Part shown: positions 15,564 through 31,836 of the stretch, in pieces
Position numbering within the stretch: position 1 is the stretch's first letter
Layout of the letters: each line of letters begins with the position of its first letter
Translations under genes and position numbers: made by a program
Notes under the pieces: generated by a model
Databases searched by the model: none
Seen by the model: the letters and a program-made list of their open reading frames with translations, nothing else
Told to the model about the DNA's origin: nothing
DNA from: Candidatus Tiamatella sp.
GTDB lineage: Archaea > Thermoproteota > Thermoprotei_A > Sulfolobales > Acidilobaceae
Direction: 5' to 3'
NCBI GenBank assembly: GCA_015522645.1
Contig: WALV01000034.1
Location: 1 to 49,963 of the forward strand
DNA length: 49,963 bases

Positions 15564-15653
15564 TTGTATCACCAGGATAATAGGACAGGCTAAGACTTAT
15601 TTAATAAGGTTATATTCCTGTTTTACCCTAAGTATCAGCCGGTGTGTAATACA

Positions 15654-16559
15654 ATGGCCTTCCTATACCGTAGTAAACCGGTAGAGGGTCCAGCTAAGAG
15701 GCTTTCCGGTTTAATAGAAAAAAGGAAAACAATCCCTGTTATAGGCGTCTTTAACCCTATCAGCGCACTTCTAGCGGAGTCAATAGGTTTCGATGTAATA
15801 TACTTAAGTGGCGCAGCCTTAACAGGCAGTTTGGCAATGCCTGATTTGGGGCTTATAACCCTTACTGAACTAGTCATGTCGACCAGATACATAACAAGGG
15901 TAACTAGTTTGCCTTTAATTGTTGATACTGATACAGGGTTCGGTGAAACAATTAATGTTCAAAGGACAGTGATGGATCTAGCTGACGCGGGTGCAGCAGC
16001 TATTCAAATAGAAGACCAGGTTCTTCCGAAGAAATGCGGTCATTTAAAAGGCAAGAAACTGGCTCCTGCAGAGGAAATGGTTAGGAAAATAATTGCTGCA
16101 AAGAGGATTGCAAAAGATAAGATGCTAGTTATTGCGAGAACTGATGCCAGAGGAGTAGAAGGCTTAGACGAGGCGTTGAGGAGGGCCAAGCTTTACGAGC
16201 AAGCTGGAGCCGACATAATTTTTCCAGAGGCACTTACGAGTGAAGAGGAATTTAGGGAATTCTCGAAAAAGATAAACATACCACTACTAGCTAATATGAC
16301 TGAATTCGGAAGGACCCCGTATTTTACAGTTGAAGACTTTAGTAATTGGGGCTATAAACTTGTTCTATTCCCGGTTACTCTATTCAGGGTATCACTTGGA
16401 GCTATGAGGGATGCTCTTAAAACCATAAAATCCGAGGGAACTCAGAGAGGAATTCTAGATAAAATGATGACGAGGCAAGAATTCTACGAGCTTATAGGTT
16501 ACTATGAATATGAAAAGGAAGACAATTCGGTATACGAGTTTTCCAGAAAGGTTTCCTAA
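15654..16559 (+). CDS. prpB: Methylisocitrate lyase family enzyme (PrpB/isocitrate lyase superfamily)
   Basis: 301 residues of a (beta/alpha)8 enzyme that cleaves 2-methylisocitrate to pyruvate and succinate or a related substrate. The substrate and Mg site DTDTGFGETINVQRT (~91) and the catalytic loop PKKCGHLKGKK with Cys128 are intact, as is IARTDARGVEGLDEALRRAK. The start ATG follows a GGTG site; an in-frame GTG four codons earlier is less likely. Members of this superfamily with an intact KKCGH loop are usually lyases. Specificity for methylisocitrate over isocitrate or another acid is inferred. The methylmalonyl-CoA mutase operon 6 kb away makes a C3/C4 acid role plausible. Confidence 0.87.
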   Translation: MAFLYRSKPVEGPAKRLSGLIEKRKTIPVIGVFNPISALLAESIGFDVIYLSGAALTGSLAMPDLGLITLTELVMSTRYITRVTSLPLIVDTDTGFGETINVQRTVMDLADAGAAAIQIEDQVLPKKCGHLKGKKLAPAEEMVRKIIAAKRIAKDKMLVIARTDARGVEGLDEALRRAKLYEQAGADIIFPEALTSEEEFREFSKKINIPLLANMTEFGRTPYFTVEDFSNWGYKLVLFPVTLFRVSLGAMRDALKTIKSEGTQRGILDKMMTRQEFYELIGYYEYEKEDNSVYEFSRKVS

Positions 16560-16631
16560 AAGCCTTATTAATATTTCACGCTTAAAACAGTATTCTCCTC
16601 AGTTACCCCCAATAGAATAAAGGGGCATCTT

Positions 16632-18572
16632 ATGAGTGGACAGTCTCGAAAGAGAGGATTATCCAGTCTCATCGGAGCACTTTTATTGATACTTATACTG
16701 GTTAATTCGATATTGTTACTTCAAAGGTATACTAGTTATTCTACCAATATAATTGAACGTGAAATTAGAAACAAAATTCCAATTGATCTTCAAGCAATTG
16801 AGTTACCAAATGGAACAATCTTACTATATAATAACGAGAATAGTATACTCAGAGTAAGATATCTCATTTACTCTAACTCATCCTACGTCAAAACTAATTT
16901 ACTAATAAATCCTAAGAGCAGCGTTCTTCTTCGTGAAAACAACATTGTAGCACTGATCACAGATGATTCCCATGTTATAATGATCGGACAAAAACCTGTT
17001 CCACTAATAGGAAGCGAACTAAACCAATCATGCATATACTTAAAGAAAATCGTGCAGACGGGCATAGGAGACGGGCATCTATCAAGAGTATACCGGTATT
17101 ATATGTATCCAAGTATCAATAGCATTATACTGAAGAAACACGCGGATTACTCACTAGACAAATATCTCCAGGTGGATCTAAGTAGAATAAGTTACTTGAG
17201 ATTCGATATAGCATACCTATCAAATGATTCTACTTTCATTAAAAGCAGTTTCGACAAGTATAACAATAAGACACTAGTTATTAACATAACTAAAACAGGT
17301 TTCAAAACTAATTACATCACTGACTATGTCTACGAGTTCAATTTAAGCAAGCACTTGGAGAACGTTGAAAAGATCTATTTAATACCAGTAATAGGATCGA
17401 TATCTCTCGACGATGAAAATATGACGATAATCTATCATATCCAGTATTCTTCGCCGGTATCGAAACTATACTTAAACGTAAATGGGCGGCGTGTCGATAC
17501 AATATCAAGTGGAAACTACTACTCTATGGGTTCAGTATTTAATGTAACGATAAGGAGGTTAGGAATAAATCAGTTGCTATTCCAGTTAAAGGCAAGTAAC
17601 GCAAATTATAAGAGTATAATTCCATACTCTCCAGGTACTACATTATCTCTTGGAACAGGAGTAAGAATAAGATCGATTGGAATTAATGCAACTACAAAAC
17701 TGTATCCCTCCATTGTAATAGAGCCACCGCCTTTAGATAACGAGTATGCTTTACAGTTGAATGGTACAAAGCCTATCTATGTTAATGTTCGAAACGTTTT
17801 CCGGTATTATCCATTGAATATATATCCTAGCTATGTTTCATCTATTAACAGCGGTTTTAGATTAAAGGGAAATGGGAGCTTGGTATACGATGAGGACAGT
17901 AATAAACCATTACTACTGTTTTATTCATATAAGCGAAGATACCATTTCACAGTATCGTGTGGCCCGTTCACCAGCGTGATTGCCCTCAAACACACTGGAT
18001 ATTCTAGTTTTCAACTCTGCTATATAATTCCTTATGTGTCGAAAGATTCCCCCGTGTTAGAGATAAGAGAAAACACTGTTACGGATAAAATAATCTTCAA
18101 CGCTTTCTCCCTGAATAACAAAACATTATGCAAGTGTTCGTTTTCCACGGATTTTCTCCAAGGACTCTATGTGCACTCCTCAGAAAATAACTCGTTAGGA
18201 ATTTATAACTACATACCAGTCATTGGGAATCTTCTACTCGATTACCCCCGAGTATTGATAATCGAAAATTACCCCGTAATACTGTCTTGCAGATACATGA
18301 ACCTCTCGAATACGGAGCTCTTAGACCTTGTTCAGTATGATGCGTTAAACGGTAGTATCAGTGATGTTTCTATATGCTTTAAGTCAGATTATATTGGGTA
18401 CATAAATATCAAAGGTTCAAAGTATTCAATGATATATATAATCAAACCTGATGGGATAGCGGTACAGGCAATGAAAGGAGTTATCATAGGGGACAACTAT
18501 GTAGTTGCTAAGATACCGGAGAATGGTACATTAGCAATACCCTTTACAACACTATCGCAGAAGTCCCCCTAA
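16632..18572 (+). CDS. Large pilin-signal ectodomain protein (putative adhesin)
   Basis: 646 residues, not recognised. The N-terminus SRKRGLSSLIGALLLILILV resembles archaeal class III (type IV pilin) signal peptides, with basic residues and Gly before a hydrophobic stretch. The rest, about 600 residues, is predicted extracellular, beta-rich and Tyr/Ser/Asn-rich, with many N-x-S/T sequons (NGT, NSS, NIT, NLS) and several cysteines. No second membrane segment is seen. It is followed after 31 nt by a CedA1-like pilin gene, so it is probably part of the same operon. A role as a minor pilin or adhesin of the DNA-import apparatus is inference from position only. A ribosome site AGGGG precedes the ATG. 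Confidence 0.72.
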   Translation: MSGQSRKRGLSSLIGALLLILILVNSILLLQRYTSYSTNIIEREIRNKIPIDLQAIELPNGTILLYNNENSILRVRYLIYSNSSYVKTNLLINPKSSVLLRENNIVALITDDSHVIMIGQKPVPLIGSELNQSCIYLKKIVQTGIGDGHLSRVYRYYMYPSINSIILKKHADYSLDKYLQVDLSRISYLRFDIAYLSNDSTFIKSSFDKYNNKTLVINITKTGFKTNYITDYVYEFNLSKHLENVEKIYLIPVIGSISLDDENMTIIYHIQYSSPVSKLYLNVNGRRVDTISSGNYYSMGSVFNVTIRRLGINQLLFQLKASNANYKSIIPYSPGTTLSLGTGVRIRSIGINATTKLYPSIVIEPPPLDNEYALQLNGTKPIYVNVRNVFRYYPLNIYPSYVSSINSGFRLKGNGSLVYDEDSNKPLLLFYSYKRRYHFTVSCGPFTSVIALKHTGYSSFQLCYIIPYVSKDSPVLEIRENTVTDKIIFNAFSLNNKTLCKCSFSTDFLQGLYVHSSENNSLGIYNYIPVIGNLLLDYPRVLIIENYPVILSCRYMNLSNTELLDLVQYDALNGSISDVSICFKSDYIGYINIKGSKYSMIYIIKPDGIAVQAMKGVIIGDNYVVAKIPENGTLAIPFTTLSQKSP

Positions 18573-18603
18573 TTTCTTCGATAGAGCTGGACGGTGAAGG
18601 AAG

Positions 18604-18843
18604 TTGGATGCAGTACAATTTATACAAGATTTAACAACGAAAGTTACAACTATAGCATGGTCTCTCTTCATATTAACATGGAGTATTGGATGGACTTTGA
18701 AAGGATCCCCAATTCCATTCGCTAAACTAAAACGAGCTGGTGATAGTCTTATAGAAGATTCCATTTGGGCATCGTTTTGGCTGGCTATGGGAACAACTGT
18801 TTTCACCCTAGTTAGCTATGTGGTTCGCTCCGTTACAGGGTGA
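18604..18843 (+). CDS. cedA1: CedA1-like mini-pilin
   Basis: A 79-residue protein with two hydrophobic helices (~14-33 and ~54-74) joined by a basic loop, SPIPFAKLKRAGDSLIEDSI. This size, topology and position just before a polytopic CedA-like gene fit CedA1, the VirB2/TrbC-like pilin of the crenarchaeal Ced DNA-import system. Start TTG has GGTGA 6 nt upstream. In the known Ced pili the two helices pack into a tube with lipid. Identification is by pattern and context, not alignment. The loop motif recurs in the next gene. Confidence 0.78.
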   Translation: MDAVQFIQDLTTKVTTIAWSLFILTWSIGWTLKGSPIPFAKLKRAGDSLIEDSIWASFWLAMGTTVFTLVSYVVRSVTG

Positions 18844-18853
18844 GACGTAAATA

Positions 18854-20299
18854 ATGTTCAGTACGGATGACTTCATACAACTGGCTTTCTATTTATCCTT
18901 CTTGACTTACTATTTAGGAACACTCATATATGCGCTACCCATTCCTATATATTCATTGAAAAGATGGGGTCCTAACCTGATAAAGGATTCAATACTAACT
19001 TTCACACTGCTAGTATCAATAGATTTTATTAAGAACGGAATAATTGAAACGGCTAACATAATGGGATCCAACTGGGAGGGGTTTTATTCTTGGACGGACA
19101 CCACATTGGATTTCCTAGGCCAACAAAGACTTCTTCTCATAGCATATTATACCGCATTCAAAGCATTAAAATCACTCATTCTATACGGGGATCTTTTAGG
19201 CCCGGTAATCAGGTTAATATCCTATAACATGATAACGATAAGCTTCATAAGGATATCTGGCTATTTCTTCCAATCCTACTGGTTTATTCTTATTGCAATG
19301 GGAATAATGCTAATTTCTATGCCTTTCCGTATAGGAAGATCAGCAGGAGCCTGGCTTATCGCGCTTTCGGTTGTTTTTTACATTGGTTTACCTCTCCTCC
19401 CTGCTTTCGCACAATCACTAGCACCGCCAATGTCCCAGATCTCTACTCATCCAAATAATCTTTTAAACTGGGGAATAAGTTATCCTGTAGTAGAAACAGG
19501 TTTTCCCTACGCTCAACCTCCTAATAATACATCGTTCCCCGTTGAATTTAAGGTTAGAGAAGAGGCGGGGGATACATTAATTGCCCGATACGTCTCTGAT
19601 GCTGGGTACGTAGATGCTAGTTTAGCTGAGAGGGGGCTCCCCTCCAATAAAGAGTTCTTTGTCTACTATATTATAGATGGGATTTCTTTTCCAGCAGAAC
19701 CGTATCCGGTAGATCCAAACAGCGACTATACGATAAAAGAATCCAGGATAACCCTAGAAACGTTTTCACCATTTATCCTTTGGATGAATTCGAACTATGC
19801 ATTATTATATAGGGACTCGATGAAAATACAGGTTGACTCAATATCTGTAAGAAAAACATCGACATACAACTATATAGTCTCCTTGCAATTCCATGCGCCA
19901 AACCAAACGTATATCGAGCTTAGAGCTCCCGACAACACACAGGTTAACATCATATCTTGCGATAACTGCAATTTCTTCAGTAACGGTAAATGGAGATGGC
20001 TAGGACTAACAGGCACTTCAATTAGAATATTGACAACCAATCAGGCGAAAACCAGTAATGTAATAATTCAATTTGAGGGGAGGGAAACAGAAACCCCTGA
20101 CTTCAGTAAACTAGAGTACTACTATGTAAAAGACTTTCTAGGAGTAACAACTGATTCAATATACTTCATTATATCAAACATATTCTTCCAGCTAATGTTC
20201 ATGCCAATACTCTATCTAGCCATTCTCACGTTAATAGCCAGACAGCTCGCAAGACTTCTAGGAAGCCGAGTATTCCCATACATACCTATAAGGGGGTGA
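18854..20299 (+). CDS. cedA: CedA-like polytopic DNA-import channel protein
   Basis: 481 residues. Hydrophobic helices are visible at about 7-29, 42-65, 92-115, 122-158 and 164-187, and a last one at ~435-465, giving about six or seven membrane passes. Between them is an extracellular segment of about 240 residues (~190-432), beta-rich, with a CDNCNF motif. Residues 28-47 (LPIPIYSLKRWGPNLIKDSI) repeat the loop motif of the preceding mini-pilin, 12 of 20 identical. CedA is the multi-pass channel of the Ced system (VirB6-like role). The ATPase gene begins 9 nt later. The alternative is a membrane platform of another pilus type. Confidence 0.75.
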   Translation: MFSTDDFIQLAFYLSFLTYYLGTLIYALPIPIYSLKRWGPNLIKDSILTFTLLVSIDFIKNGIIETANIMGSNWEGFYSWTDTTLDFLGQQRLLLIAYYTAFKALKSLILYGDLLGPVIRLISYNMITISFIRISGYFFQSYWFILIAMGIMLISMPFRIGRSAGAWLIALSVVFYIGLPLLPAFAQSLAPPMSQISTHPNNLLNWGISYPVVETGFPYAQPPNNTSFPVEFKVREEAGDTLIARYVSDAGYVDASLAERGLPSNKEFFVYYIIDGISFPAEPYPVDPNSDYTIKESRITLETFSPFILWMNSNYALLYRDSMKIQVDSISVRKTSTYNYIVSLQFHAPNQTYIELRAPDNTQVNIISCDNCNFFSNGKWRWLGLTGTSIRILTTNQAKTSNVIIQFEGRETETPDFSKLEYYYVKDFLGVTTDSIYFIISNIFFQLMFMPILYLAILTLIARQLARLLGSRVFPYIPIRG

Positions 20300-20308
20300 A
20301 TTCTCTGG

Positions 20309-21628
20309 TTGAACTATGCATCCATCATCATATTACTATCATTAATACTGATAGTAAGAAACATTTACCGGTCAAGCAAGCCAGTTGTAGAATCAAGGAT
20401 AAATCCCAGGGAATACTCGATCAACTCTGATGGGACCTTGAAACTAGACAACCTATTTTTTTCCGGTACCAAAAGATTGTTTTGCACAAAAGTCAAACTA
20501 AACATTCCATACGATACACTTATATCAACAGATAAATTTTCACAAATATCCAGGAAAATCGCTTACTTCTCCACCCTTAATAAATCGATATATTCGTATA
20601 TAATTGATGCATATACTCCCTTAGACGAACGGAAAACATCTAAAAAGCTAGTAAATGTAAAGCTATACCAGGAGTTCATTAAATCAAAAAACAATGGGCA
20701 GTATGATCAGCTTATTAATAAAATAAGCAACGTTAGCTTCCATAACTCGAAAATACTGATTCTATGCTCTCCAGATGCAAACGAGCTGGAAAAGCACATT
20801 GGTTTTATGGGAATAGAACTATCATCTTTACTTGGTATCCATCCGCAAATGGTAATTGAAAAAGAAAAATTCCAGGATACAAATCTTCTCGCAGATCTCT
20901 TCAAGAGGCGTCTTACCATTAAAAAGAACACTATCTATGACCGTTTCGGTGCATTAATAACCCCCGGATTACCCGACTCCAGTGATAATATATGTGTAGG
21001 GAAGAGCCTTGAAGGCCCGGTATATTGCATGAAATGGATAGATGATTTCGAGAGGCATGTAGGGATTATTGGACCCACGGGAGCAGGGAAAACGACTCTC
21101 CTCTATACTATAACCTTAAACCTTATCAGTAAAGGAGTTAATGTTAGTATTATGGATCCTAAGGGAGATTTAGTGACCCTACTGGAAGACAAAGGCCTAA
21201 CAGAGCACCCCAAACTCGAGGTGTTGACAGGCTATAAAGAGGATATCGTGGAAGAGCTTGCCAAAAAAGATCCTGAAAACGAAAAGGCATTAATAATAGA
21301 CGAGGCGTGGAGAGTATTATCCAACACGGTTAAATTCAGTAAAACCTATCATTTATTCCGGGAATCAAGAAGTAAGAAACTGCGAATTATATACGCCACC
21401 CAAAACCCTTGGGATTTGAGTTCAACGGTTTACTCTAATACAGGCACTTTCATCGTATTTGCAAACCAGAACCTAACCTACATTAGGGGAGTATCAGAGA
21501 TAACAGGGCTGGGAATAGGGGAGTTATCAAGCTTAAATACACGAATAAAATTTCGAGCCATAGTTCTAAGGAACGGGCATTTTAGACCAGATATAATAAC
21601 TATATTTAAGATCAAAGAAACCCATTAA
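20309..21628 (+). CDS. cedB: CedB-like VirB4/HerA-family ATPase
   Basis: 439 residues: an N-terminal membrane helix (~3-18, YASIIILLSLILIV), a soluble domain (~40-235), then a RecA-like ATPase domain. Walker A is GPTGAGKTTLLYT (from residue 255), Walker B is ALIIDEAWR (Asp331, Glu332), and the sensor-like stretch is FRESRSKKLRIIYATQNPWD. These belong to the VirB4/TraC/HerA clade that powers conjugation and, as CedB, DNA import in crenarchaea. Start TTG follows GGGGTGA at the end of the cedA-like gene. A Gln in IYATQNPWD supplies the usual motif after Walker B. The IMP dehydrogenase gene follows 27 nt later on the same strand. Confidence 0.85.
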   Translation: MNYASIIILLSLILIVRNIYRSSKPVVESRINPREYSINSDGTLKLDNLFFSGTKRLFCTKVKLNIPYDTLISTDKFSQISRKIAYFSTLNKSIYSYIIDAYTPLDERKTSKKLVNVKLYQEFIKSKNNGQYDQLINKISNVSFHNSKILILCSPDANELEKHIGFMGIELSSLLGIHPQMVIEKEKFQDTNLLADLFKRRLTIKKNTIYDRFGALITPGLPDSSDNICVGKSLEGPVYCMKWIDDFERHVGIIGPTGAGKTTLLYTITLNLISKGVNVSIMDPKGDLVTLLEDKGLTEHPKLEVLTGYKEDIVEELAKKDPENEKALIIDEAWRVLSNTVKFSKTYHLFRESRSKKLRIIYATQNPWDLSSTVYSNTGTFIVFANQNLTYIRGVSEITGLGIGELSSLNTRIKFRAIVLRNGHFRPDIITIFKIKETH

Positions 21629-21655: not shown

Positions 21656-22891
21656 ATGAATCCGTTTACAGAAAAAATACTCGTATTCGATGACGTAGTA
21701 ATAATACCAGGCTTATCTAGAGTAGAGCCTAACCAAGTGGATTTATCTACCAGTTTAACGGAAAGAATAAAACTATGTATTCCAGTGGTTTCCAGTCCAA
21801 TGGATATGGTGACCGAAGCGGAATTAGCTATCAAACTAGCAAAACTGGGAGGGCTAGGGGTTATTCATAGAAATATCAGCGTGGAGGAACAGGTTGACCA
21901 GGTTAGGAAAGTTAAAAACGTTGACAAGGTTTACCTTACAGAAGAATATGAGGACCCCGGCAGGATTGTTAGGCTGGAAGAAGCCGGTTCAGGCTATAGA
22001 TTGATAGTGGAGAAACCAAGAAACGTTTTGCTAGAGGAAATTTCAGAAATATCCGCTTATCTAAGATTAATCTCTGGATACCCTATCAAACCAACGATCG
22101 ACGAGAACGGTAGGCTTATGGTAGGAGCCGCTATATCACCATTCGATGTACAAAGAATTGAAAAATTAAGTAAAAAAGCCGATGTGCTCGTTGTCGATGT
22201 TGCACATGCACACAACGAAAACGTCATATCATCTCTAGCGAAAATAGCTCCTACACTGGAATCCGATTTAATCGTAGGAAACATAGGCACGAAACAGGCC
22301 GCTTTAGATATTATTTCTAGGGTAGAACATGTAAGCGGATTACGTGTAGGGGTTTCAAGTGGAAGCATTTGCAGTACAGGTGAAGTAACAGGCGCAGCCG
22401 CGCCAACCTTGTGGGCAGTAATGCAGGTTAGGGAAGCCCTAGAAGAACTAGGACTCCACGGTAAAATACCTATACTAGCAGACGGTGGTATCAGAAGTCC
22501 CTCCGACATAGCAAAGTCCCTGATTTCCGGTGCATCAGCTACCATGCTAGGAAGACTTCTAGCAGGTGCGAAGGAGTCTGCCTCACCAATCATATCTATT
22601 GGAGGAAGAAACTACAAGTTGTATAGAGGAATGGCCAGCTCTTCCGCTGTTCGTAAAAGATACGCGTCAGATAGATACAGTGGAACCGTGAAGAGAATTC
22701 CAGAAGGTGTAGAGGCGTTAGTTGACTATACTGGTAGCCTAACAGAGATTATCGAGAGAATAGTGAATACGTTACAAGCAAGCCTAGGATACGCAGGAGC
22801 TTCCTCGATAAGGGAATCGTGGAACGCGAAGCTAGGTGTGCTATCTGAGTCTGCGAAAAAAGAGATAAAGCCTCACGACCTAGTCTTATGA
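21656..22891 (+). CDS. guaB: IMP dehydrogenase lacking CBS domains
   Basis: Makes XMP from IMP with NAD+, the committed step to GMP. 411 residues of TIM-barrel: SSPMDMVTEAELAIKLAKLG, DVAHAHNENVI, the catalytic loop SSGSICSTGEVTGAAAPT with Cys239, ILADGGIRSPSDIAKSL, and the active-site flap YRGMASSSAVRKR. Between ~95 and ~150 there is no CBS pair, only a short linker, so the protein is shorter than the usual ~480-residue enzyme. GMP reductase shares this fold, but the flap and loop favour IMPDH. A GGAGG site precedes the ATG. The stop overlaps the convergent meaB gene by 6 nt. Confidence 0.88.
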   Translation: MNPFTEKILVFDDVVIIPGLSRVEPNQVDLSTSLTERIKLCIPVVSSPMDMVTEAELAIKLAKLGGLGVIHRNISVEEQVDQVRKVKNVDKVYLTEEYEDPGRIVRLEEAGSGYRLIVEKPRNVLLEEISEISAYLRLISGYPIKPTIDENGRLMVGAAISPFDVQRIEKLSKKADVLVVDVAHAHNENVISSLAKIAPTLESDLIVGNIGTKQAALDIISRVEHVSGLRVGVSSGSICSTGEVTGAAAPTLWAVMQVREALEELGLHGKIPILADGGIRSPSDIAKSLISGASATMLGRLLAGAKESASPIISIGGRNYKLYRGMASSSAVRKRYASDRYSGTVKRIPEGVEALVDYTGSLTEIIERIVNTLQASLGYAGASSIRESWNAKLGVLSESAKKEIKPHDLVL

Positions 22892-23881
22892 CCGGTCAAC
22901 CTTATGGATCATTTTAGAGGTAGCTTTCTCCGCCAGCATGCGGGTAATCGACCTATACTCCCTGCCTTCAACTATCTTTTTCTTTAACACGCCATCCAGA
23001 TCCATAAACGATTCCTGCAAACTCTCAGAGAACACCCTTTCAAGCAATAGCCTAGACAACAATAACCTCCTCGAAACAAGCTTCTCTTTAACTAACCCTC
23101 CACTTTTAACGTGGTTCCAGTGTTCCTCTACTATATTAACCAGCTCATCAATACCTTGACCCATTATAGCAGATGTCTTCACTATTCTAGGCACCCAATC
23201 CTCTTCGAACAGCCCTATATCGCCCTTATCTAAAGAGAATTTCAAATACTCGAATGTTCTAGTAGCTTCAGGTTTGTCACTCTTGTTGATAACGTAGATG
23301 TTCCCTATTTCCATTACACCAGCTTTGAGAGCCTGGATATCATCCCCGGCTCCCGGCATTGTAACAACTATAATCGTATGGGCTGCATTCATAATGTCCA
23401 CATCTGATTGACCTACACCAACGGTTTCAACAATTATTTTGTCATATCCAAGTGCATCGAAGACCTCTATAATAGATAGGCTAGCAATGCTTAATCCTCC
23501 TTTCAATCCTCTTGTAGATATGCTCCTAATGAAAACGTCTCTATCCGTGGCGTACTGCTGCATTCTAAGCCTGTCACCCATCAATGATCCTTGTGTAATA
23601 GGGCTCGAGGGGTCTATAGCGACTACAGCAACCTTATAACCACGCTTCCGGTATTCGCCTATCATTTTAGATATCAAAGTCGACTTCCCTGCTCCTGGAA
23701 TACCTGTTACGCCTATTACTTGCGCATTGCTGCCATGGCTGGAGATATGCTCAAGTAGCTCTAGAACTTCCAAACTGGAGTTTTCAACAATAGTTAGAAG
23801 ACGGCCAATAGACCTTAACTTACCCTTCCTAGCCTCTTCAAACAACTCAATTATATCCTCCAATAGCATTCCTCTCCTCAT
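22886..23881 (-). CDS. meaB: Methylmalonyl-CoA mutase chaperone GTPase MeaB
   Basis: 331 residues of the MeaB/ArgK/MMAA G-protein family that protects and reloads methylmalonyl-CoA mutase with adenosylcobalamin. Motifs: P-loop [51 protein letters not shown]3-like [12 protein letters not shown], and G4 NKSDKPEA. Its start overlaps the 3' end of the B12-subunit gene upstream by 35 nt (in another frame), so the two are coupled; an internal ATG five codons in is an alternative start. Ordered as large subunit, B12 subunit, MeaB, it forms a typical mutase operon. The 3' end overlaps guaB. Confidence 0.93.
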
Positions 23882-24269
23882 ATAGCCTCCTTACGGTATC
23901 TACAATGTATTTTAAAGAAGTACCAGGCAAAAACACCTCTTTTACACCCATCTGTTTAAGCGTGTCTACGTCGGGTATTGGTATAGTCCCACCTACTACT
24001 ACTGGAATATCAATAGCACCCTCTTGCCTTAATAGCTCTACGAGTTTTCTGACGTGATGCACATGCGCACCACTCAATATGCTCACACCAATGACGTCCA
24101 CATCTTCCTCTATTGCCGCTAATACCACTTGCTCAGGTGTTTGCCGGATACCTGTATAAACTACTTCCATGCCAGCATCTTTCAATGCTCTAGCTATCAC
24201 TTTGGCCCCTCTATCATGGCCGTCAAGACCAATTTTAGCAACCAGTACTTTGATAGGCTTCCTCCCCAT
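23847..24269 (-). CDS. Methylmalonyl-CoA mutase, B12-binding subunit
   Basis: A 140-residue cobalamin-binding domain protein. The signature [10 protein letters not shown] (DxHxxG with the cobalt-ligating His) is present, with [14 protein letters not shown] and [15 protein letters not shown] completing the Rossmann-like fold. It pairs with the large subunit encoded 11 nt upstream; in many archaea the mutase is split this way. The ATG has GAGGTG 7 nt before it; an in-frame TTG at 24284 that overlaps the upstream stop would add five residues and is unlikely. Confidence 0.95.
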
Positions 24270-24280
24270 TTTCCAGCACC

Positions 24281-25981
24281 TCAATAGATGGGGGGTTCCA
24301 CGTAAACACCGTAAACTCTCTTCAACGCACTCATTATTTCCCCGAGAGTAGCATAAGCTTTGGCTGCCTGGAGTATATAGGGCATAACGTTCTCTCCACG
24401 CACAGCCGCTCTTTCAAGCTCAGCTAAAGCACTTTCAACCTTCTCTTTATTCCTCACAGACTTAATGAACTTCAATCTCTCAATCTGCCTTTCCTCTATT
24501 TCCTCTTGGTTGAAGTCGAGTAAAGGTACATTCCTAACCTCATCGACGTCCTCGGATTCAAATATGTTAACACCTACAATGAACTTCCTACCATCATCCA
24601 CATCTTTCTGGAACTTATACGACGTCTCCGTGATCTCCCTTTGAGGGAATCCTTTCTTCACTGCTTCCAGCATTCCACCCATTTTCTCTATTCTATCAAT
24701 ATACTTCCACGCTCTCTCCTCTATTTCATCTGTTAACCACTCAACATAATAGCTGCCTGCTAGCGGGTCCACAGTATCAGCCACACCTGTTTCATAGGCA
24801 ATTATCTGTTGTGTACGAAGAGCTATCTTTGCGGCGAACTCGCTGGGAACCCTGAATGGCTCATCGAAACTATTAGTGTGCAGGCTTTGTGTTCCCCCTA
24901 GAACCGCCGCTAGGGCTTCAATGGTTGTTCTTACAATATTATTCCAGGGTTGCTGGGCAGTTAAACTAACACCAGCAGTCTGAGTGTGGAATCTCATCCA
25001 TAAGCTTCTATCTTTCTTAGCGTGGAACCATTCCCTCATTATTTTGGCCCACATTCTCCTAGCGGCTCTGAACTTTGCAATCTCCTCGAAGAAGTTTATA
25101 TGGGAATCCCAGAAGAAACTTAGCCTATGAGCAAAGCTGTCCACGCCAAGCCCTCTCGATACTAATTGGCGGACATACTCTATCCCGTCCGCTATCGTGA
25201 AAGCCAGTTCTTGAACGGCATCTGACCCGGCTTCCCTAATGTGATAACCGCTAATACTTATCGGGTTCCATTTCGGAAGCTTCTTCACGCTCCACTCGAT
25301 CAAATCCATTGCTACTTTGACAGCGGGCTCCGGGGGGAAAACATAGCTTTTCTGCGCTATGAACTCCTTAAGAGGGTCGTTCTGTGTTGTACCTCCAATT
25401 TTCTCATACAGAACTCCCTGCTTCTCCGCAACACCAACATACATGGCGAGTAATACAGGAGCTGGAGGGTTTATCGTCATGTTGGTGGTTACTTCACCCA
25501 TATTGATACCGTCAAAAATTATCTCCATATCCTTTAAAGTATCAACTGCCACTCCCACTATACCAACCTCCCCCCTAGCCATAGGATCATTAGAATCGAT
25601 GCCCACTAGTGTAGGATAGTCAAAGGCTAAGCTTAACCCGGTTTCCCCATGTGATATGAGGAACTTCAATCTCTTGTTAGTCTCTTCCGGCCCACCGAAC
25701 CCTGAGAACATCCTCATAGTCCATAGCCTTCCCCTATACATAGATGCATGTACTCCTCTCGTGTAAGGGTACTCGCCTGGGAATCCGAGTTTCTCATAGT
25801 AGTCGAATTTCTTGATGTGTGCTGGTGTATACACTCTATCTACTTCTACATCACTAAGCGTTGTGAATTTCTCCATTCGCTCAGGATACCGTTCTAGGCT
25901 TTTCGGAAGCGTCTCTCTCTCCCATCTTTTTAGATCTTCCTCTATCTCCTTCACGGTATCCTCCTTGAATAAGTGTGGCAA
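24281..25981 (-). CDS. Methylmalonyl-CoA mutase, large (catalytic) subunit
   Basis: Interconverts methylmalonyl-CoA and succinyl-CoA by adenosylcobalamin radical chemistry. 566 residues: [72 protein letters not shown], the [20 protein letters not shown] region with conserved His and Gln, and [15 protein letters not shown], all family hallmarks. It lacks the B12 domain, which is a separate subunit here. The start TTG follows AGGTGG; a GTG nine codons later with GGAGG before it is an equally plausible start. It is the first gene of the operon. Confidence 0.96.
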
Positions 25982-30250: not shown

Positions 30251-31738
30251 TTATTCCCTCATATCGCCATTTCTAATGTAGTTTAGATGGAAGCTATAGG
30301 CTTTTTCCAGGTCAAACGGTGAGTGACCCCCTGATTTAACCGCGTTCTCATAATACTTCCACAACTGGTCCTTGTATATGGGGTGTGAGCATTTTTCTAT
30401 GATTAACCTAGCTCTCTCCCGTAAACTAAGGCCTCTCAGGTCACAGTAGCCCTGATCGGTAACTATTACATCTACATCGTGGTCTACCGTATCCACGTGT
30501 GTGACGAGAGGTACTACTGTGGAGATTTTCCCGTCTTTTCTTATCGAAGGTGTGATGAAGATGCTTAGGAATGCTCCCCTCGAAAAGTCTCCGCTGCCTC
30601 CTATACCGTTGATCATGTTTTTCCCTAGTATGTGAGTAGAGTTCACGTTGCCTAGTATATCCACTTCTACTGCAGTGTTTATCGCTATGACGCGGAGACG
30701 CCTGATCAATTCTATGTTATTAGTTATATCTTGTGGTCTCAAAACAATGCTTCTCTTAATTTCTTCAGCCTCCTGGTAAACTCTTTCCAGGTTCCTTGGG
30801 GAAAGCATAAGGCTAGTAGCTGACAAAGCATCCATTTTCCCTTCCAGGTACATGTTTAATAGGCTGTCCTGAATAACCTCTGTCCAAGCTTTTAATCCTT
30901 TGAATCCTGCTTCACCCACAGCTTTGAAAACAGCATCATTAACGGCTCCTACCCCACTCTCAAGCGGATACAGGTTTTCTGGTAACCTCCCTTTCCCAAC
31001 CTCTTTCTGGAAGAATTGGAGAAGATTCTCGGCAATAGCCTTTTCTACATTCCCAGGCTCTACCGGCTTCCCACCGACATCGATTCCACTTGATTCGACT
31101 ACACCTAGAAGCTTTCCTTTCGGCAGTTTAACTATGGGCGATCCTATTCTATCCTCAACATTCCTCAGAGGTATAGGCTCGCCTGGTTGAGGGATATATA
31201 TGTCATGTATACCGTTCATTTCCTCACTAACATCCCTGTTAACCTCTACAATCACATGCCTCGCCTTCTCCACGAAAGCAGTAATAGCGCCGACACTGCC
31301 AGTCGGCACGAAACCGTCATTGAGTACTTGTGCTGCTTCAACAATAGCGAGGTCTATACCCTCAACAACCTCGTCCAGCCAACCATACCTAATGAGAAAC
31401 GGCCACTCACCCAAATGATAATCCATGAACTCAACAATCCCTTCATTTATCAGTTTCCTCATAACAGGATTATTCTGGTAAGGATACCTTCTAATCGCAA
31501 CTCTTTTCTCAGCAAAAATACCGTCCATAGCGTATGCACTAGCACCGGTTAGAATAGATACCTTAACACCCTTTGAAGCAGCCTCCTCAGCCAAATACTT
31601 AGGCATAGTTTTCGGATATCCAACGCTTCCAAAACCGCTTGTCCCTATTACAAGTCTATTACCCACAGCTTTCTCGATAGCAATAGAAGACAGTTTCTCA
31701 GGGTCCGAAACATGCTCTCCTCTCGAGGTTAAAACCAT
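30251..31738 (-). CDS. Acetyl-CoA hydrolase/CoA-transferase family protein
   Basis: 495 residues of the class I CoA-transferase family (acetyl-CoA hydrolase/succinyl-CoA:acetate or 4-hydroxybutyrate CoA-transferase group). Features: VIGTSGFGSVGYPKTMPKYL, IVEAAQVLNDGFVPTGSVGA, SGVGAVNDAVFKAVGE, AWTEVIQDSLLNM with the likely catalytic Glu, VEVDILGNVNSTHILG and GIGGSGDFSRGAFLSIF. It may transfer CoA between succinyl-CoA and acetate or propionate. The ATG has GAGGTG 6 nt upstream; an in-frame GTG three codons before overlaps that site. It is coupled to the gamma-CA-like gene. The substrate is not fixed by sequence. Confidence 0.9.
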   Translation of the reverse strand: MVLTSRGEHVSDPEKLSSIAIEKAVGNRLVIGTSGFGSVGYPKTMPKYLAEEAASKGVKVSILTGASAYAMDGIFAEKRVAIRRYPYQNNPVMRKLINEGIVEFMDYHLGEWPFLIRYGWLDEVVEGIDLAIVEAAQVLNDGFVPTGSVGAITAFVEKARHVIVEVNRDVSEEMNGIHDIYIPQPGEPIPLRNVEDRIGSPIVKLPKGKLLGVVESSGIDVGGKPVEPGNVEKAIAENLLQFFQKEVGKGRLPENLYPLESGVGAVNDAVFKAVGEAGFKGLKAWTEVIQDSLLNMYLEGKMDALSATSLMLSPRNLERVYQEAEEIKRSIVLRPQDITNNIELIRRLRVIAINTAVEVDILGNVNSTHILGKNMINGIGGSGDFSRGAFLSIFITPSIRKDGKISTVVPLVTHVDTVDHDVDVIVTDQGYCDLRGLSLRERARLIIEKCSHPIYKDQLWKYYENAVKSGGHSPFDLEKAYSFHLNYIRNGDMRE

Positions 31739-31836
31739 CCTACACACCTCTGAGAAAGTAATAACGGATATTCCTCTAGTTCACTCATTGTAATACATGT
31801 TTTAAATGCTCCACTCAAGATTTTCGGATTGATATG

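Follow-up and report, generated by a model that had tools for sequence, protein, structure and literature searches.

Why should an operon for DNA import begin with a gene for a large pilin-like protein? The question is raised by a locus of Candidatus Tiamatella sp. (assembly GCA_015522645.1), from a thermophilic and poorly known genus of archaea, in a 49,963-nt stretch of contig WALV01000034.1, hereafter called the window. Four consecutive open reading frames (ORFs) lie there on the + strand at 16632-21628, encoding proteins of 646, 79, 481 and 439 aa with intervening gaps of 31, 10 and 9 nt. An original prediction, made from the DNA alone, had reported this row of genes, whose coordinates and lengths we verified, had read the last three as a Ced-type cluster, cedA1-cedA-cedB, and had proposed that the first encodes an extra component possibly replacing Ups pili. 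In what follows the 646-aa protein is called P0001 and the window genome G000; G and L numbers denote other genomes and loci, and f numbers denote families. We found that the cluster for Ced (crenarchaeal exchange of DNA) is present and that P0001 carries a class III prepilin signal and an N-terminal domain related to the Ups pilin UpsC. We give roughly even chances to the explanation that this is a chromosomal Ced operon that has recruited a large UpsC-like minor pilin or adhesin, processed as a type IV pilus (T4P) subunit, for partner contact.

The 79-aa product of cedA1 (18604..18843, +, TTG start), a VirB2-like conjugative-pilus subunit with two membrane helices, scored 128 bits against NF041797, above the NCBIfam cut-off of 100, and matched chain B of PDB 8dfu at E 5.6e-30. 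By sequence and context this PDB entry is the Aeropyrum pernix CedA1 pilus described in PMC9905601, and the CedA1 assignment is certain. The 481-aa protein (18854..20299, +) is polytopic, a putative VirB6-like channel whose membrane helices are interrupted by a long ectodomain. Its top NCBIfam family was CedA (NF041796, E 1.7e-41, 142 bits for residues 1-202 against a cut-off of 330), and its N-terminus also matched the CedA1 model. The 439-aa protein (20309..21628, +, TTG start), a VirB4/HerA-type ATPase with one N-terminal transmembrane (TM) helix, matched PF01935 and PF05872 (HerA/DUF87) above the Pfam cut-off, and its top NCBIfam family was CedB (NF041017) with 48 bits against 36 bits for CedD, where the CedB cut-off is 700. 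The NCBIfam equivalog cut-offs for CedA and CedB appear to be tuned to Sulfolobaceae, and we regard these two assignments as probable on the basis of top family match and synteny. The order cedA1-cedA-cedB was found throughout the related genomes, and CedA1 was present in 177 of the 229 genomes of the class. CedA1, CedA and CedB were the best families for the three proteins in a comparison with the Ced families, and the Ced-type reading of the cluster is upheld. Elsewhere in the genome, a 568-aa frame on contig C63 is a CedD candidate (262 bits for positions 183-526, where the equivalog cut-off is 600), which agrees with the reported co-occurrence of CedB and CedD (PMC11868833). The CedA proteins of the window and of most families are ~450-490 aa long with an ectodomain of ~220 residues before the last TM helix, and those of Sulfolobaceae are ~260 aa long.

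Residues 1-9 of P0001 (16632..18572, +) form a textbook class III prepilin signal: the protein begins with MSGQSRKRG/LSSLIGALLLILILVNS and is predicted to be cut between G9 and L10 (slash). Its score against the TIGR02537 signal model was 12 bits, below the NCBIfam cut-off of 20. The class III motif recurs in all members of the P0001 family, as RKRG/LSSLIGALL in the window and as KKG/LSNL, RRA/LSEV and RTG/ISSL in the relatives. An N-terminal helix extends to about residue 47 and is followed by a beta domain to about residue 118 and then by ~530 residues for which mostly beta structure is predicted, with ~17 N-glycosylation sequons in the protein as a whole. Searches of Pfam, NCBIfam and PDB sequences returned nothing usable for P0001, and the body of ~530 residues past the N-terminal ~115 had no match. 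AlphaFold2 modelled residues 1-130 as a 43-residue helix plus seven strands, with a predicted local distance difference test score (pLDDT) of 70. Among PDB structures this N-domain model came closest to the archaeal type IV pilus of Pyrobaculum calidifontis (8fk7, E 3e-3), with Ig-like fimbrial chaperones ranking next, and it lends moderate support to a type IV pilin fold. The genome encodes an A24 prepilin peptidase (C11), as well as T2SSE and TadC-like genes for pilus assembly on several contigs. A type IV pilus/archaellum-type ATPase gene on contig C21 (L152, 850-3498) is split by an intein (TIGR01445 above cut-off).

The matches of P0001 in Sulfolobaceae included a 575-aa Saccharolobus protein identified as UpsC by NCBIfam (1057.7 bits). 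A profile of four P0001-family sequences had matches at E < 1e-3 in eight Sulfolobaceae genomes, and in seven of these the matched gene was of the UpsC family (G197, G198, G199, G200, G214, G215 and G217, which represent three genera and are not independent). The reverse search used a hidden Markov model of the N-terminal 135 residues of UpsC, built from 20 Sulfolobaceae sequences with the window family left out. Of the 4,708 ORFs scanned, P0001 and its G066 and G067 relatives scored best, at E 1.6e-7 to 4e-7, where the best other pilin of the window genome reached 2.7e-4; hhalign of the P0001 and UpsC N-domains gave 97%. Two pilins encoded on contig C33 of the same genome served as controls: the large one (581 aa) had no Sulfolobaceae match at E<=0.01, and the small one (202 aa) matched mainly a 187-aa pilin and no UpsC gene. 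At the level of these profile comparisons, the N-terminal ~115 residues of P0001 are specifically closest to UpsC among Sulfolobaceae pilins. The UpsC family model itself, with an equivalog score of 800 bits, found no match in the window genome at E<=0.01, and P0001 is therefore filed as UpsC-like and not as UpsC.

Full-length relatives of P0001 were found, among the 229 genomes searched, only in the same genus. Those in G066 (63% identity) and G067 (36%) both lie directly 5' of cedA1, and the CedA1 identities of the same pairs are 95% and 90%. A fourth copy is on contig L002, next to a cedA1 that is 91% identical to that of the window. P0001 and cedA1 are adjacent in all four copies of the genus, with similar close spacing in G066, L002 and L003. 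By comparative criteria the 646-aa ORF is a real gene: relatives at 36-63% identity carry it in full, with a ratio of nonsynonymous to synonymous divergence (dN/dS, Nei-Gojobori, pairwise) of 0.09 between the window and G066, where dS is near saturation, and 0.22 between L002 and L003, a comparison from which the truncated cedA was excluded. P0001 is under purifying selection and yet has the highest dN in the neighbourhood, and it is the fastest evolving member of the operon. Positive selection was considered and rejected, the pairwise dN/dS values being well below 1. Contig L002 (JALWCE010000049.1) belongs to this archaeal genus and is binned in a metagenome-assembled genome titled Nitratiruptor sp.; it is surely mis-binned there because of the cedA1 that it carries.

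Judged purely by spacing and promoter placement, P0001 is likely co-transcribed with cedA1-cedA-cedB. A putative promoter with the TATA-like element TTATTAATATTTCA (16565..16578, +; one match where none was expected) lies between P0001 and the upstream gene prpB and is near-identical in the sister species G066, and the 31-nt gap between P0001 and cedA1 is too short to hold a promoter, which could fit only within the coding end.

A second genus contributed one relative: in G039, prpB is followed by a P0001 relative that is cut by the contig end (100 residues aligned, E 3e-10). The pilin looks inserted between prpB and cedA1, because prpB directly abuts cedA1 without a pilin in 10 of the 30 loci of the family, including that of G027, which is presumably A. 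pernix. No pilin remnant was found in the 392-nt prpB-cedA1 gap of G038. For a broader view we retrieved ~100 cedA1 loci, 94 of them with enough upstream sequence, and defined look-alikes of P0001 as large, sequon-rich secreted proteins with a single N-terminal TM helix, encoded on the same strand within 100 nt of cedA1. Such genes were present at 7 of the 94 other cedA1 loci and at none of 397 background genes from the same stretches (Fisher p = 8e-6, phylogeny ignored). Two of the seven loci are in this genus, three in f3 (G087, G090 and G072) and two in f11 (G226 and G227). The 646-aa gene beside cedA1, whose homologues the original prediction had suggested seeking in other Desulfurococcales, is found in the four genus copies and as a truncated relative after prpB in G039, and is missing from most loci. 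The claim that the gene stands outside the described core Ced set is borne out by the same survey: P0001 is not a general Ced subunit but an addition specific to certain lineages, namely this genus and at least one other.

The upstream regions of cedA1 showed further variation. In f3 (L071, L108 and L113) and f11 (L074 and L097), the genes form a cassette, conserved by its appearance, of a small pilin-like protein, a large pilin-like protein and cedA1-cedA-cedB, with a huge C-terminally anchored surface protein encoded 5' in four of the five; G089, of the same genus as G090, does not have the f3 cassette. Huge proteins of 1494-1549 aa, rich in sequons and with a membrane segment at each terminus, are encoded directly 5' of cedA1 in G005 (L075) and G182 (L084). 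Contigs stop 7-45 nt from cedA1 in G037:C61, G040:C93, G222:C5 and G137:C51, two of which share the genus of G039, and assemblies could be interrupted near cedA1 by an upstream surface gene that varies between strains.

Under the explanation to which we give even chances, P0001 would be put into the membrane by its N-terminal helix and clipped by the host prepilin peptidase between G9 and L10, leaving ~600 mostly beta, glycosylatable residues exposed outside the cell. There it would most likely act as a minor or tip pilin or adhesin that joins cells or selects the partner, and the CedA1 pilus and the CedA/CedB channel-ATPase would import DNA after this contact. P0001 would thereby fill the job that Ups pili (UpsA/B/C) have in Sulfolobaceae, from a gene that lies next to those of the importer and probably shares their transcript. 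Sa. islandicus needs UpsC to aggregate and to import as well as export DNA, and other Crenarchaea lack Ups pili (PMC11868833). The proposal of an extra component in place of Ups gains strength from an N-domain that is closest to UpsC, with negative controls, and loses its generality in that P0001 is no general Ced subunit.

Several observations weigh against this explanation. Once its signal and TM segment are removed, P0001 scores ~10 bits against UpsC, which is not significant alone, and beyond residue 125 no relation between P0001 and UpsC was detectable, although UpsC-like proteins of different Sulfolobaceae genera likewise align only in their N-terminal part. The full-length AlphaFold2 model of P0001, built from three sequences, was unusable (pLDDT 36). 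No convincing match to the ultraviolet-response hexamer A(N)TTTC plus TATA was found 5' of the operon. No homology of P0001 to the large proteins of f3 and f11 was detected by BLAST or hhalign, so that these are positional look-alikes only, a recurring kind of neighbour and not one family. The absence of such a gene from 87 of the 94 loci means that Ced works without a large pilin in cis, and the second large pilin of the window genome, in the ordinary pilus locus of C33, means that large pilins are not Ced-specific.

The last of these points belongs equally to a rival that we consider unlikely yet worth serious attention, namely that P0001 is part of a separate adhesion T4P and came to lie beside cedA1 by chance insertion after prpB, without taking part in DNA transfer. 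These archaea commonly have large pilins, the prpB-cedA1 junction without a pilin is common in the family, and the pilus assembly genes lie outside the ced operon. Chance fits less well, however, with a close linkage that has been kept in four copies despite divergence to 36% identity, with the recurrence in another genus and the look-alikes in the same slot of two families against none in the background, and with an N-domain that resembles UpsC and not the other local pilins. The position directly 5' of cedA1 could also mean that P0001 is a structural subunit within the CedA1 pilus, at its tip or base in the manner of VirB5, and is not a pilin assembled by a T4P motor; a tip adhesin, VirB5, is present in bacterial conjugative pili (PMC11868833). 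We hold this to be improbable. A VirB5 homologue in Ced is not described, but Pfam, NCBIfam and PDB sequence searches gave no VirB5-like match for P0001, and its class III signal and UpsC relation indicate T4P processing and assembly. Furthermore, the genome that we presume to be A. pernix (G027) has no such gene at its locus, and the structure solved for the CedA1 pilus of A. pernix is a filament of one protein plus lipid (PMC9905601). Finally, P0001 is very large, beta-rich and sequon-rich, and huge surface proteins anchored at both ends are encoded 5' of cedA1 in G005 and G182, as might be expected of an accessory protein of the surface layer or cell wall that has nothing to do with pili and uses its N-terminal helix only as a membrane anchor. 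A canonical class III motif in every family member and a pilin-type helix plus beta domain make this very improbable.

How Ced-bearing archaea manage without Ups pili is a recognised puzzle, for which aggregation has been proposed to be either unneeded or supplied by other appendages (PMC11868833), and a UpsC-like pilin in the ced operon is a specific candidate for the missing contact step. The fast divergence of P0001 beside a near-invariant CedA1 is the pattern expected of a species-specific recognition protein, as has been proposed for Ups pilin subunits, which carry species-specific recognition regions (PMC7064770). A wider version of the idea is possible, and we put it forward tentatively: a T4P-derived subunit for recognising the partner and a DNA importer derived from a type IV secretion system (T4SS) may be encoded as one unit for chromosomal DNA exchange. 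Archaea in which no ups operon is recognised would then have met the need for mating contact by setting a fast-diversifying UpsC-type pilin before the ced genes, and unrelated large pilins would have served the same end in other crenarchaeal families. In the literature searched, which was mostly open-access, we found no ced locus described with a large pilin gene. Ced operons, UpsC and large archaeal pilins were each known already, and their combination in one operon was not found there.

The genes around the operon are of a different kind. The 5' neighbour prpB (15642..16559, +) was identified as methylisocitrate lyase by TIGR02317 (410 bits, cut-off 354) and synteny, and was rejected as a member of the system, for which it had been considered as a neighbour of the PEP-mutase/ICL type. 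On the 3' side, 27 nt past cedB, an IMPDH-domain protein (21656..22891, +; PF00478, E 4.5e-103) is conserved in G066. Together with prpB, a methylmalonyl-CoA mutase with MeaB and a succinyl-CoA:acetate CoA-transferase (within 22886-25981 and 30251-31747) surround the operon, suggesting propionate/methylmalonyl metabolism for the flanking genes. The C33 pilus locus (L214, 7258-10372, - strand) consists of genes for a TadC-like protein with a weak UpsF match, the small pilin and the large pilin. Of the 229 class genomes, 47 have relatives of this large pilin, which mostly share its C-terminal part and often stand in tandem groups of three or four.

Compared with known systems, P0001 resembles the VirB5-type tip adhesin of bacterial T4SS in its proposed partner-contact role for a conjugative pilus, by analogy, and has no sequence or signal-peptide similarity to it. 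Large pilins are also encoded in crenarchaeal T4P loci, of which that on C33 is an example, and share with P0001 a class III signal, a length class of 500-600 aa and a probable function as minor pilin or adhesin. The C33 pilin, however, is of a different family, matches neither UpsC nor P0001 and is linked to a TadC-like gene, not to ced. UpsC (NF053659; SiRe_1957) is closer, in size class, class III signal, sequon-rich and cysteine-poor body, and a detectably related N-terminal helix and ~80-residue beta domain; P0001 differs in falling below equivalog level, in a body that cannot be aligned, and in being encoded in the ced operon where UpsC is encoded on its own. The operon agrees with the Ced system of Sulfolobales and Aeropyrum (PMC9905601, PMC11868833) in gene order and families, with a clearly orthologous CedA1 and with a CedD candidate elsewhere in the genome. 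It departs from that system in a CedA with an ectodomain that the 260-aa Sulfolobaceae CedA lacks, and in the 646-aa pilin at its head.

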